Below are positions 15,557-22,745 of a stretch of DNA of 64,000 nt, piece by piece. Every line of letters starts with the position of its first letter. Position 1 is the stretch's first letter. The notes below the pieces were generated by a model. That model searched no databases. It worked only from the letters and a program-made list of their open reading frames with translations, and was not told where the DNA came from. The stretch comes from Trametes villosa. Lineage: Eukaryota > Basidiomycota > Agaricomycetes > Polyporales > Polyporaceae. The position numbers and the translations under genes are program-made. The stretch lies in contig PUDQ02000033.1 in NCBI GenBank assembly GCA_002964805.2, positions 434,001 through 498,000 of the forward strand. The letters are read 5' to 3'.

Positions 15557-18500
15557 ATGAAGCTCTTCAAGCTACTGGCCGTCCTTTTTGCATGCGGGTT
15601 GGTATCTGCGACGGAGCTGTTTGATCGAAACTTGGCATATTCTTCGCCTTTTGTGAAGGCGCCGCAGGTGAGCGCCCGCCGTATACTTTCAATACCTACA
15701 GCTGACCAATTTGCGCACAATGTAGCTGTCGCACGACACCCGTTCGCTTCAGGCTCGCCACATAAACCATGTCAAGAGGCAGCTCTTGGATACGCAAAGT
15801 TCGGACGGCTTCAAGGACGAGCACTACCCGACGTTCTACGGCGGAGACTTCACCGACGTACGTGAACTGTTCACCAGGACGTCTTGTGCCCCTGCCTAAC
15901 CTTCCGCCACGGTACTAGAGTCCGTTTATCTACAACGGCGGAGTCAACTTCACACACTCAGGTTCATCGTTACGCTTGTTGCACTACGCTGCTAGTCGCT
16001 CAAGCATATACCTTGCTTTGACAGTGGCTAGCGTACGTATCCTCCGCGTATCATGCTTCTCGCCAGATGTCTCGACGTAGATTCAACGCACAGGGCGACC
16101 CATTCCACGACTCCGTTCTGCTCTGGACTCGCGCTGTTCCTCTTGGCAGACCCGACCAAAGCATCCCCGTCTGCGTCTCCTACAAGATTTTTGACAACCC
16201 GGAGCTGCATGGACAGCCACTTGACGCGAGCGACGCGAGCGACGCGTTCACGAGCTACGATGTCGACTTCACGCTCAAAGTGGAGGCGAAGAACCTGAAG
16301 CCCGATACGGCGTACTGGTACCAGTTTGCTGATTGTACGAACCCGAAGACGGTGAGCCCGGTAGGGAGGACTCGGACCATCGCGAGTAACGACAGTGCGT
16401 GGCTCTACATCGACGGTCTCTGTACCCTGACTTTCGAGCTCGCCGCAGCGCCTGCGCACCTCGTAAACCATGGCAAACCCCTCACATTCGCTGTGTTCAG
16501 CTGTGCGCGGTACCAGGACGGTGCGTACACCGTCAGTCGATGCTGCAGCTGCCGTGTTCAGAATACTCTGCCGCCCAGGTTACTTCAACGCGTATGGTGT
16601 GGCCGCCCACAACACATCTACAGACATCTTCGTGCATCTCGGAGACTACGTACGTGACTTGTCTGCCTTGCGGTCGATTGCAGTATCTTCTGAGCTTCAT
16701 GCCTCTAGATATACGAATCTCTGGGAGACGGGTACGGAGATGTCTCGTGCCGTTTAAATGGCGCCTGATGCTGCTGTTAACGCAGTGCTCCCATCGGGCG
16801 CGAGACTCTTGGTCGGGAACTTGCGACGATCGAGGACTACCGAGGTCGGTTGAATCAATACAGGACCGACGTTAGCTTGGTGTATGCGCACCAGAATGCA
16901 CCTTGGATCGCCGTTTGGTAAGCCCTCTTATCCCTCAGTGTCTTCATGTGGCCCTGTCAGCCTTGCTAAACGTTTGCCCATGTTTAGGGTGAGTGCAACG
17001 ACGCATTGAGTATTCCCCTCCACCACGAACACATCATCCTCTAGGACGATCATGAAGTCGCAGACCAAGCCTGGAAGGCCGGCACCGCTGACAGCAACGA
17101 CACGGAGGTCGGCTGCAGCTTCTCCCCCTCCGGCGCGTGCTTCACAGACCGGAAGCTCGCCGCCGTCCGAGCCTACCATGAGTGGATGCCTATCAGACAA
17201 GTCGACCCCGACGACAAGCTCCGCGTGTGGCGCAACTTCCAGATCGGCAAGCTGCTGGTAAGACGTTCGGCGGTGCCCGTAAATGCTGCGAAAGAACCAC
17301 TGACCTCGTATGTAGGACCTCACTATGCTCGATACCCGTCAGATATCTCGCTCGTTGCGTCGACATGTAGTCACTCAGCGGCCTTTACAGGTCAATACGA
17401 TCGAGATATCACGGATGTGAGTGTCGTAGGTTGGTAGACGTTCCTCGCCGACTAACATTTGACTGTCAAGTTGTACTACAACACTGGTGAGCACACCTCG
17501 TTGCGGATTAGACTCACATGACGATTGTGAGCATGCTTTGCCCGCCCTAGAATGTACGTGCAATACCTTCTATCATTGCAGGTGCGTGTTGACAGCGTCG
17601 TAGTCATCGACTCGATCGCCGACGAGAAGGAGCGTTCCCTGATGGGTGCACCACAGGAGACCTGTGAGTAATCAATGACCCGTCTATCCGCTTCCCCATG
17701 ACACTTCGCCGAAACCACTTGAAGGGTTCCGTAACACGCTTTTGGCGTCCAAGGAAAGGGGCGCGGTCTGGCGTATCGTTGGGCATGTGTATATCCCTTC
17801 CAGTCTGATACACACCCCTGACGGTAGAGTTCGCAGTCAACAGATCGTGTTCACGCAAATAAATCTCACCACGGGCTGTAAGCAGCCACTTACCCCTCGA
17901 TATTTTACGCTGATCACTGGCATGCTGTCCATAGACGATGTCGTGAGTAATCATGCGGCACAACCTGACTGCTCAACTCACAAGACACTGCCTAGGATGC
18001 GTGGGATGGCTACCGGGCGAACCGAAACCGCGTCCTCGACCATTTGTACGCCAACGATATCAGCAACACCATCATCCTCGCAGGAGACTCGCATGCAAAC
18101 TGGGCCAGCGACCTTGCCCGTGAGTATCAATGACTCGCACATTCGTACCCCTCTTACACATATTTTGTACTAGGTCCGAATGATACTGTCACGTACGTCC
18201 AACCGCGATACTCGCATGTCTCATCTTCACAACCCTTTCGCCTCTCCAGGTACGATTCTCGAACAGGCAAGGGTGCCGTCGGCGTCGAATTCGCGGGCAC
18301 AGCAGTGTCGTCCACGTCCACGTTCGGTGCCGGTATCTTGCCAGACGCCGCCAACGAGATCTCGCGGCACTACGTGCGGAACAACGCAGACTTGCAGTGG
18401 AGCGAAGGCTCGTACCGCGGCTTCTTCACGCTTACACTCAACACGACCACCGCCACCGCAACGTACTACGCGATGCGGAACGGCAGTGAGTGTAATTTAA

Positions 18501-18731
18501 TATATCGGTGAAAGTGGGAGACGCTAACGAGCCTGTAAAGGCTCCGCGAACCTGGATGCGTTTGCTAGTGCTTCCTTTGTCGTCGAAGCAGGTGAGTCGC
18601 CTTCCGTGATGGTTGTCCGTACGACTGTATAAAGCTGACAATGGCTCTGCCCTCTACCAGGCGAGAACAAGATATCTCGCCCTGTGGCCGGCGGGCGAGT
18701 CGCCGCGGGAGTCCTAAAGATACAAGGTTGA
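15557..18731 (+). CDS. Secreted PhoD-like phosphatase, tandem copy A (24 exons, microexons)
   Basis: PhoD-family metallophosphatase (alkaline phosphatase D or phosphodiesterase type). A signal peptide is present (MKLFKLLAVLFACGLVSA). Reconstructed motifs in order: FTHSVASGDPFHDSVLLWTR, YNAYGVAAHN-type region, VHLGDYIYESLGDG, APWIAVW-DDHEVADQAW (metal-binding DDHE), DPDDKLRVWRNF, LTMLDTRQYDRDITD, IADEKERSLMG, VGQQIVFTQIN, DAWDGYRANRNRVLDHL, GDSHANWASDL and LQWSEGSYRGFFTLTL. About 24 exons are needed. Very small ones are at 16025-16032 (8 nt), 16988 (1 nt), 17471-17486 (16 nt), 17551-17553 (3 nt), 17935-17942 (8 nt) and 18174-18192 (19 nt). The intron 17783-17836 has a GC donor. Family assignment is strong; enzymatic specificity and the microexon structure need RNA data. 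Confidence 0.88.
16988..16988 (+). other. Inferred 1-nt exon (G) in PhoD copy A
   Basis: The upstream exon ends GCC GTT TG at 16917 and the downstream exon begins GAC GAT CAT GAA at 17045. A single G at 16988, flanked by AG and GTGAGT, is the only base that restores the frame as TGG-GAC-GAT (W-D-D-H-E). The flanking introns are 70 nt (16918-16987) and 56 nt (16989-17044). Confidence 0.7.
17551..17553 (+). other. Inferred 3-nt exon (AAT) in PhoD copy A
   Basis: AAT lies between an acceptor (CCCTAG) and a donor (GTACGT). Inserted between the ACT-G end of the 16-nt exon and TC-ATC, it yields NTEFIDSIA. The same AAT exon occurs in copy B. Confidence 0.6.
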
Positions 18732-19628: not shown

Positions 19629-22600
19629 ATGATTTCTACGCTGCTCGCGAGTCTCGCACTGTGTGCCGTCGCAGGTGCAACAGAACTGTTCGATCGTAAC
19701 TTGGCGTATTCTTCGCCGTTCGTCAATGCGCCGCATGTGAGTGACCAGAATATAGCTGCAATGAAAACTTGATATTGACTGATGCCCTCCGGCTGTGTAA
19801 TAGTTGTCCCACAACACTCGCGCTCTGCATGCTCGTCACGTAGAATTCGCGAAGAGGCAGCTCTCCGACACGGAGAGTTCCGAAGGATTCAAGGATGAGC
19901 ACTATCCCACCTTCTACGGGGGTGACTTCGGCAGCGTGAGTGTGTCCTGCCGTTCTGTCACTGGAAAATTCTCTAACAGACGACCGACCGCGTCCAGAGC
20001 CCGTGGATCTACAATGGTGGCATCAACTTCACGCATTCAGGTAAGTCCCCGACTCTCCCCATCTCAAGGGATGATACTGAACCATTTCCCTCAGTCGCCA
20101 GCGTAAGCCAGAAGACAACGCTCGTGAGCCCGTGCTGATGATCGCGTAGGGCGATCCCTTCCACGACTCTGTGCTGCTCTGGACACGTGCGGTGCCCGAC
20201 GGCCCCACTCTCCCTTCGGACGTCAGCATCCCCGTCTGCGTCTCCTTCAAGATCTTCGACAACGCCGAGCTCTCAGGCCGCCCCGTCGACTCGGGCGACG
20301 CCTTTACAAGCTACGACGTCGATCACACGGTGAAAGTCGAAGCGAAGAACCTAAAGCCCGACACACATTATTGGTACCAGTTCGCGGACTGCACGAACTC
20401 AAAGACCGTCAGCCCGGTCGGCGCGACCAGAACTATCTCTACGCCGGGTAGTGAGTGCGCCCCCTAGGAGATGCAGGGAGCAGCGCTAACTGTATGCACG
20501 CGCGACAGCTCCCGCTCACCTCGTGAACGGTGGCAAGCCGCTTGAGTTTGCCGTCTTCAGCTGCTCTCAGTACCAAGCTGGTGCGCTCCGGGCCTACTCA
20601 ACTGATCGTTTCTTTGAATACTGACGTGCTTTGCGCATCACAGGTTACTTCAACGCTTACGGCGTCGCCGCACATAACACTACTGCTGAGATCTTCGTGC
20701 ACCTGGGAGACTACGTGAGCTTTTCTTCGCACCTATACCTTGGCGGTACGCTAGAGCTTCCTTCCTAGATCTACGAGTCTCTTGGTAACGGGTACGTCGG
20801 GTGGTGAACACCGATGCGAGAATATAGAGCTGACACTCGGTTTTAGTGCAAAGATTGGGCGCAAAACGCTCGGAAGAGAGCTGGCGACCATCGCGGATTA
20901 CCGTCTTCGCTTGAACCAATACAGGACCGACGTCAGCTTGCGGGACGCGCACGTCAAAGCGCCGTGGATCGCTGTTTGGTGAGTGTCTCCGTCTCGTAAC
21001 CTATCGAAATTTACTGACAAGGTCGCGCATAGGGTGAGTACAGGATACTATGATGGCGTGCAGCCTCCGACGCTAACACTCCTCAGGACGACCATGAAGT
21101 CGCAGATCAAGCCTGGAAGGCAGGCACCGCGAACAGCAACGACTCGAGCGTCGGCTGCAGCTTCTCCGCGTCAGGGGCATGCTTCACCGACCGGAAGCTC
21201 GCAGCTGTCCGCGCATACCATGAGTGGATGCCTATCCGACAGGTCGACCCGGACGACAAGCTTCGCATTTGGCGTAACTTCCAGATTGGCAAGCTCTTGG
21301 TGAGTGGTCTTGCATTCACCGAACGCTGCAAGCTCGGGCTCATCCTCTCACAGGACCTCACCATGCTTGACACTCGTGCGTAATAATCCGAGGTTGTATG
21401 GCGAGCGTAAGGTTACTCACGATGAACAGGTCAATATGATCGCGATATCACTGACGTACGTTAGGCACGCCGATCTGCCAAAAATCTCGCTGATGATTTC
21501 ATACTCCTCTAGCTGTACTACAACACTGGTAAGTGGGAGCGTAACAATGTGCCCAAGGTGTTGACGATACGATGGATGCGTATTCCACAGAATGTGAGTT
21601 CAATAACACAGTAATTGAGCGGGCGATGCTAACCATCCCCATAGTCATTGACTCCATCGCTAACGAGAAGGACCGTTCGCTTATGGGAAACGCCCAAGAG
21701 AACTGTACGTATCCGTGTACACAATGCCAGATCGAGGGGCAAAGCGGCTAACACCTTCCCGCAGGGTTCTTCGACACGCTGTCGAGCTCCAAGCAGCGTG
21801 GTGCTATCTGGCGCGTTGTAGGGTGAGCAGCAAATCTCGAGCCTTGGATGCTCGCAGTGTTACAGTGACGATTCTTTCCCAGTCAACAGATCGTGTTCAC
21901 GCAGTTGAACGAGACTGGTGGATGTGAGTCGCGATCACTCCCCGTCTGCATACCGGTGGAACTGACATACCTTCCCGTGATGAACCAGTCGATGTTGTGA
22001 GTGCTTTACGGCTCTACCAGCTTGGACTCGCCATAGAACATATCCAACAGGACGCTTGGGACGGCTACCGCGCCAACCGTGCTCGCGTGCTCGATCACCT
22101 GTACAATAACAAGATCAGCAACACGCTCATCCTCTCGGGCGACTCTCACGCTAACTGGGTTAGCGACCTCGCTCGTGAGTCGATATTCAAGTCGTCATTG
22201 TGATATGCAGCCGGACTTATCACGCGTCGCATATAGGCCCCAACGATACCACTACGTACGCCTCCCCCGCGAACGAGATACGTACTTACAAACACTAACA
22301 GCTCCATGCAGCTACAACCCCATCACCGGGCAGGGCGCGATCGGCGTCGAGTTCGCGGGGACGGCGGTCACCTCCGGCTCCGCGTTCGGCACGAACATCC
22401 AGCCCGCCGCGGCCGACAAGATCTCGCAGAACTACGTGCAGATCAACGATGACCTGCAGTGGAGCGAGGGCTCGTACCGCGGCTTCTTCACGCTCACGCT
22501 CAACACGACCGACGCCGTCGCGACGTACTACGCAATGCGCAACATCAGTGAGCGCTGTCCCTTTCTTTCTCCTTCGCGCTGCGAACCTGTGAGAGGGTGA

Positions 22601-22745
22601 GGTGCTGATGATGGTGTCTGCAGGTAACGCGAACTTGGACGCGTTCGCGAGCGCGACGTTCGTGGTCAAGGCGGGCGCGAACAAGCTGGAGCGCCCCGTC
22701 GCGGGTGGCAAGGTGTCTGCGGGCGTGCTCAAGGTTCAAGGCTGA
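19629..22745 (+). CDS. Secreted PhoD-like phosphatase, tandem copy B (24 exons, microexons)
   Basis: Close paralogue of the gene at 15557-18731. The signal peptide is MISTLLASLALCAVAGA, then ELFDRNLAYSSPF as in copy A. Motifs: HSVASGDPFHDSVLLWTRA, VHLGDYIYESLGNG, APWIAVW joined to DDHEVADQAW, DPDDKLRIWRNF, LTMLDTRQYDRDITD, IANEKDRSLMG, VGQQIVFTQLN, DAWDGYRANRARVLDHL and GDSHANWVSDL. Intron positions match copy A. Microexons are 20095-20102 (8 nt), 21033 (1 nt), 21513-21528 (16 nt), 21591-21593 (3 nt) and 21989-21996 (8 nt). Where copy A has a GC donor, this copy has a normal GTGAGC. Both copies keep all putative metal ligands, so both should be active. Confidence 0.88.
21033..21033 (+). other. 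Inferred 1-nt exon (G) in PhoD copy B
   Basis: This is the same arrangement as at 16988. The exon ending GCT GTT TG (20978) is followed by a 54 nt intron ending CATAG, a lone G at 21033, a GTGAGT donor, a 53 nt intron with its own CTAAC branch site, then GAC GAC CAT GAA from 21087. Confidence 0.7.
21591..21593 (+). other. Inferred 3-nt exon (AAT) in PhoD copy B
   Basis: AAT sits between CCACAG and GTGAGT. It connects ACT-G to TC-ATT-GAC, giving NTEFIDSIAN as in copy A. Confidence 0.6.

Follow-up and report, generated by a model that had tools for sequence, protein, structure and literature searches.

Tandem PhoD genes and their exon structure

The window, meaning the whole 64,000-nucleotide stretch of Trametes villosa DNA analysed here, contains two tandem genes for PhoD-type alkaline phosphatases, both on the forward strand. 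We modelled the two genes by hand with frame-keeping GT-AG junctions (and one GC-AG junction) that are consistent with the other copy. The model of copy A (15557..18731, 24 exons, 613 aa) was checked against reading frame, GT/GC-AG intron ends and the copy B protein, and copy B (19629..22745) has 23 exons and encodes 612 aa. Their coding sequences are identical at 1374 of 1827 aligned bases. Seven of the eight PF09423 (PhoD-type phosphatase) matches in the genome lie inside copies A and B, and the PhoD structure 2yeq was matched with an E value of 3e-69. A genome search with the exon that carries the DDHE motif returned these two places only.

Besides the site described below, each model contains three very short exons. 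The 3-nt exon 15 (AAT; 17551..17553 in copy A, 21591..21593 in copy B) has AG directly before it and GT directly after it in each gene, and the frame survives its skipping. The 8-nt exon 4, within the SVASGDP motif, is at 16025..16032 and 20095-20102, and the 8-nt exon 19 is at 17935..17942 and 21989-21996; both are conserved between the copies. A final intron of 69 nt (18592-18660) is present in copy A and absent from copy B, and intron 17 of copy A (17783-17836) has an apparent GC donor (GG/GCATGT) where the copy B counterpart has GTGAGC. No other in-frame donor for copy A intron 17 was found by eye.

A candidate single-nucleotide exon at the active-site motif

Exon 9 of copy A (16786..16917, 132 nt) ends in GCC GTT TG, in phase 2, and is followed by the donor GTAAGC (16918-16923). 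The next coding sequence is exon 11 (17045..17257, 213 nt), which begins with GAC GAT CAT GAA (DDHE; GACGATCATGAA starts at 17045) after an acceptor TAG that ends at 17044. Exon 9 and exon 11 cannot be joined in frame, and only G16988 restores the Trp of WDDHE. This base lies between a TTTAG that ends at 16987 and the donor GTGAGT at 16989-16994, all bases being as given in the preliminary description, which had proposed a 1-nt exon here. In our model exon 10 (16988..16988) is this single G, the third base of the Trp codon. It is flanked by intron 9 (16918..16987, 70 nt, GTAAGC...TTTAG; donor 7.4, acceptor 2.6), with a CTAAA 18 nt before its 3' end as a putative branch site, and by intron 10 (16989..17044, 56 nt, GTGAGT...CTCTAG; donor 9.7, acceptor 7.9). 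Both introns are of normal size, as had been claimed, compared with 47-76 nt for the 37 introns that belong to neither microexon gap. Exactly one base thus separates a usable acceptor AG from a donor GT, the copy A acceptor being weak.

Copy B has the same layout. The matching single G is exon 10 (21033..21033), between intron 9 (20979..21032, 54 nt, GTGAGT...CATAG, with CTGAC near the 3' end; donor 9.6, acceptor 6.3) and intron 10 (21034..21086, 53 nt, GTGAGT...CTCAG, with CTAAC near the 3' end; donor 9.7, acceptor 5.8). Exon 11 (21087..21299, 213 nt) begins with GAC GAC CAT GAA, and the lengths of exons 9, 10 and 11 are 132, 1 and 213 nt in both copies.

The Trp that this base would complete is also present in bacterial relatives. 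The solved structures 2yeq and 9uya (PDB chains) have it directly before DDHE, and VWDDHE is uninterrupted in bacterial PhoD genes. In a scan of genome contigs that yielded bacterial loci only, and that is therefore informative on the Trp and not on introns, Trp precedes DDHE in 19 of 19 DDHE matches and in 18 of the 19 loci, the remaining locus (L029) having stopped short of the motif. The base is thus needed for the frame and its residue is supplied in homologues that lack these introns. Loss of the base, or retention of either flanking intron, wrecks the protein in silico. Direct joining breaks the frame, as the preliminary description had stated, and gives a stop after residue 403 (A) or 428 (B). 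Retention of intron 9 gives a stop directly after the Trp in both copies, and retention of intron 10 a stop after residue 304 (A) or 446 (B).

Taken together, bases 16988 (copy A) and 21033 (copy B) very probably represent one and the same constitutive single-nucleotide exon in the two genes, a reading to which we give a probability of roughly 0.93 from the genomic sequence.

Splice-site scores, chance and intron divergence

Donor and acceptor matrices were trained on 41 other introns, for which the lowest donor score was -0.4 and the lowest acceptor score 2.3. The copy A acceptor at 16987 (2.6) is close to this minimum, which counts against the exon. Copy A intron 10 contains no match to the branch-site pattern.TRA[CTA] in the range searched, a property of 7 of the 23 copy A introns in all. 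Candidate internal exons were then enumerated at permissive scores with introns of at least 40 nt. The 1-nt exon was the one candidate in the copy A gap, and the copy B gap gave two, the 1-nt exon and a 12-nt exon that fails to restore the frame, so that the single base is the sole frame-restoring internal exon in either copy. Two longer exons were also rejected. An exon of copy A running from 16988 to a later donor meets an in-frame stop (the intron 10-retained product reads WVSATTH and then stops), and with an exon at 21033-21057 in copy B the remaining intron would measure 29 nt, whereas no modelled intron is shorter than 47 nt. Read as a single intron without the 1-nt exon, the gap would measure 127 nt (A) or 108 nt (B), against 47-76 nt for the 37 other introns.

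We shuffled each gap 4000 times with approximate preservation of dinucleotides. A 1-nt exon with a donor score of at least 9 arose in 0 of 4000 shuffles for copy A and 1 of 4000 for copy B, but permissive cut-offs raised these numbers to 118 and 70 of 4000, respectively, which counts against the exon. The 10-nt word TAGGGTGAGT is present two times in the window, where shuffles predict 0.08 occurrences, and the second occurrence (21030-21039) falls at the homologous position of copy B. The word is also the longest one common to the whole gaps of the two copies, a length equalled in 6 of 1000 shuffled pairs. The introns have otherwise diverged, the longest common word in 22 matched A/B intron pairs being 5-7 nt. 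The one-base exon of this tandem pair would thus have persisted through the turnover of the surrounding intron sequence. A count of the 12-mer TTTAGGGTGAGT over the 46.7-Mb genome gave two occurrences, the same number as for its reversed control. Therefore, the 12-mer alone is no proof, and it is frame, position and duplication that carry the argument. The other genomic copy of TTTAGGGTGAGT is found just 3' of where the coding sequence of an unrelated gene stops, presumably the succinate dehydrogenase iron-sulphur subunit.

Gene models of fungal relatives

The preliminary description had suggested aligning orthologues to see whether TG^G^GAC is conserved. Copy B conserves it at the DNA level, and for other species conservation was read from gene models. 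A scan of viral contigs for the PhoD DNA of relatives found none. Two protein searches (best 120 of each) gave 142 distinct proteins, of which 131 are named gene models and 11 are jgi/lgn contig ORFs. The longest jgi/lgn contigs are of 1,978-9,722 bases, and we took these sequences as translated ORFs of cDNA or intronless genes. Among the matches listed, the motif xWDDHE is intact in 30 of 131 fungal gene models versus 11 of 11 contig ORFs. The intact gene models include all three listed from Ramaria, Sphaerobolus and Hysterangium.

The other 101 models, again among the matches listed, fall into several kinds. An exact loss of Val-Trp is found in 26 of them, 28 are without DDHE, 11 have one extra residue after the Trp, 11 have other inserts after the Trp, 6 carry 18-21 inserted residues of which the first is V and the last is Q, and 19 differ in other ways. 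The exact loss is what a predictor would produce on picking the GTTTGG donor, as phase-2 TTTG cannot be joined to phase-0 AG/GAY. The extra residue belongs to the set encoded by TNN codons in 9 of the 11 listed cases (three W, two C, three Y and one L) and is Q in the other two, which fits a donor shifted by four bases in TG/GTNN/GT. The six long inserts match an intron 10 of 54-63 nt kept in frame, with a GTN-NGT start and a CAG end. Moreover, in 17 of the 18 listed models that read VWV the next residue is S, R, G or C, the residues of the four NGT codons, and a donor GTNNGT directly after TGG would require an NGT codon at this place. Since a simple phase-0 or phase-2 intron is easy to annotate, we interpret these errors as the signature of a 1-nt exon; they are those expected of a predictor unable to place one, suggesting that the exon is also present in the species concerned. 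Such marks were found in Artomyces (Russulales), Coniferiporia (Hymenochaetales), Armillaria (Agaricales) and Trametes (Polyporales).

As a control, indels within four residues of each junction were counted in 113 gene models and 7 contig ORFs from the best 120 matches of one search. At the junction of the 1-nt exon they were found in 83 of 113 gene models versus 0 of 7 contig ORFs, and at the 3-nt exon in 80 of 113 versus 0 of 7, so that the 3-nt exon appears to show the same annotation-error behaviour. Of the two 8-nt exons, exon 19 had counts of 34-42 and exon 4 a count of 22 among the gene models, and the other junctions had 2-17; the seven contig ORFs had one indel at each of junctions 8, 18, 19 and 21. 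Across 297 off-junction windows the mean was 7.4 indel-bearing models, but one variable window reached 105 of 113, and the peak of indels alone is therefore no proof.

Alternative explanations and order of splicing

A single intron could instead run from the donor GCC/GTTTGG (16913; GCT/GTTTGG, 20974, in copy B) to exon 11; the protein would then lack Val-Trp, and the cDNA would lack TTTGGGAC. Such an intron preserves the frame, and the 26 of 131 listed gene models with exactly this deletion would agree with it. The donor, which the preliminary description had named as a possible refutation, scores -2.8 (A) and -3.2 (B), under all 41 training donors, and the intron would measure 132 or 113 nt. 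Furthermore, the Trp that it removes is present before DDHE in all 11 contig ORFs listed and in all 19 bacterial DDHE matches, and we consider this reading very unlikely. A one-base frame gap is also the typical look of a sequencing or assembly error, here a base lost at the end of exon 9 next to one ordinary intron. As both copies have the identical gap and the identical AG-G-GTGAGT, and as the merged intron would be long, an error is extremely improbable. Equally slight is the chance of a spliceosomal twin intron (stwintron) of the [D1,2] type. The site resembles one in that an inner intron lies near the outer donor and removal is sequential. In a [D1,2] stwintron, as defined in the available text on these elements, the inner intron sits between bases 1 and 2 of the outer donor and no base is left in the mRNA, whereas at 16988 a complete GTGAGT lies downstream and one G would be retained. 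The exon could also be real but alternatively included, with skipping or retention tuning phosphatase output. The frameshift on skipping and the immediate stop on intron 9 retention would allow this, but there is no sign of a useful second product, and we regard it as improbable, though the least so of these alternatives.

The constitutive 1-nt exon would be spliced by way of two ordinary introns of 53-70 nt that flank the single G in each copy. With the acceptor AG and the donor GT one base apart, splicing factors cannot engage both introns at once, and on these steric grounds introns 9 and 10 would be removed one after the other. The preliminary description had likewise argued for sequential splicing, and this part is retained. 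It had also supposed that the first reaction creates the donor TGG/GTGAGT for the second, which is not needed, since AGG/GTGAGT is already strong before splicing (9.7 in both copies); upstream-first removal is thus possible and not required. Either order would give TG-G-GAC, with the Trp of the conserved WDDHE.

Age and distribution of the exon

In a FastTree tree of 122 proteins, copy A grouped with proteins from Cubamyces, Trametes elegans and Pilatotrama (support 0.997), and copy B with proteins from Trametes, Lenzites and Cubamyces and another Pilatotrama protein (0.808); the node uniting the two groups was weak (0.193). The tree thus suggests that the duplication preceded the divergence of these genera, and the 1-nt exon would be of at least equal age. 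Its presence in both copies suggests that it predates the duplication itself.

The annotation errors in four orders suggest an old exon common to many Agaricomycetes. We somewhat favour the wider reading that it is ancient and constitutive in PhoD across Agaricomycetes (Polyporales, Russulales, Hymenochaetales and Agaricales), and that in part of the Agaricales the exon after it may consist of nothing but the 12 bases encoding DDHE, in which case two successive exons of 1 and 12 nt would make up the catalytic motif. The exon may be missing in some lineages, as the models from Ramaria, Sphaerobolus (Geastrales) and Hysterangium are intact. If the wider reading is true, a large part of the PhoD proteins in public databases for Agaricomycetes would be misannotated at the catalytic site, and PhoD would lend itself naturally to the study of how the spliceosome deals with an acceptor and a donor that overlap.

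Comparison with known one-base exons

The preliminary description regarded 1-nt exons as very rare, with Arabidopsis as the example. The example stands, and the rarity is outdated by plant VPS55 and Fusarium CYP621A. According to the accessible text of each source, Arabidopsis APC11 has a constitutive 1-nt exon (base A, in a 422-nt span) proved by cDNA and mutant reporters (PMC4674806). The 1-nt microexon of VPS55 is supported by RNA-seq and RT-PCR, is conserved across land plants, is absent from reference annotations and has an intron-retained isoform in some species (PMC8831610). CYP621A (2026) has a 1-nt exon spanned by SRA reads and is described there as the first fungal case (PMC12940212). 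The PhoD exon would add to this class. As in APC11, one frame-essential base lies between AG and GT, although the plant exon was shown experimentally and the PhoD exon is predicted from sequence (PMC4674806); as in VPS55, a plant gene, the donor is GTRAGT (PMC8831610). The likeness to CYP621A extends to AG-G-GT within a conserved motif and short flanking introns in a fungus, but CYP621A is an ascomycete P450, whereas PhoD is a phosphatase of a basidiomycete, is present as a tandem pair and has one 3-nt and two 8-nt exons besides (PMC12940212). Fungal stwintrons share adjoining introns that need sequential removal and differ in leaving no base in the mRNA (PMC5639578), and the one-base exon of placozoan cox1 is mitochondrial (PMC5436844), in each case as far as the source text available goes. 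No 1-nt exon of a basidiomycete was found in the open-access literature searched. The PhoD exon would set the lower limit for exon size in a basidiomycete nuclear gene, amid the active-site motif of an enzyme.

Two observations concern more distant sequences. In Agaricales proteins such as P0059, P0090 and P0106 the models jump from PWIT to VADN, which suggests a separate DDHE exon of about 12 nt in some Agaricales. A distant third PhoD-like gene (L003, G000:C10:937692-938180) has by eye a Tyr, not a Trp, before DDHE, with an intron nearby.
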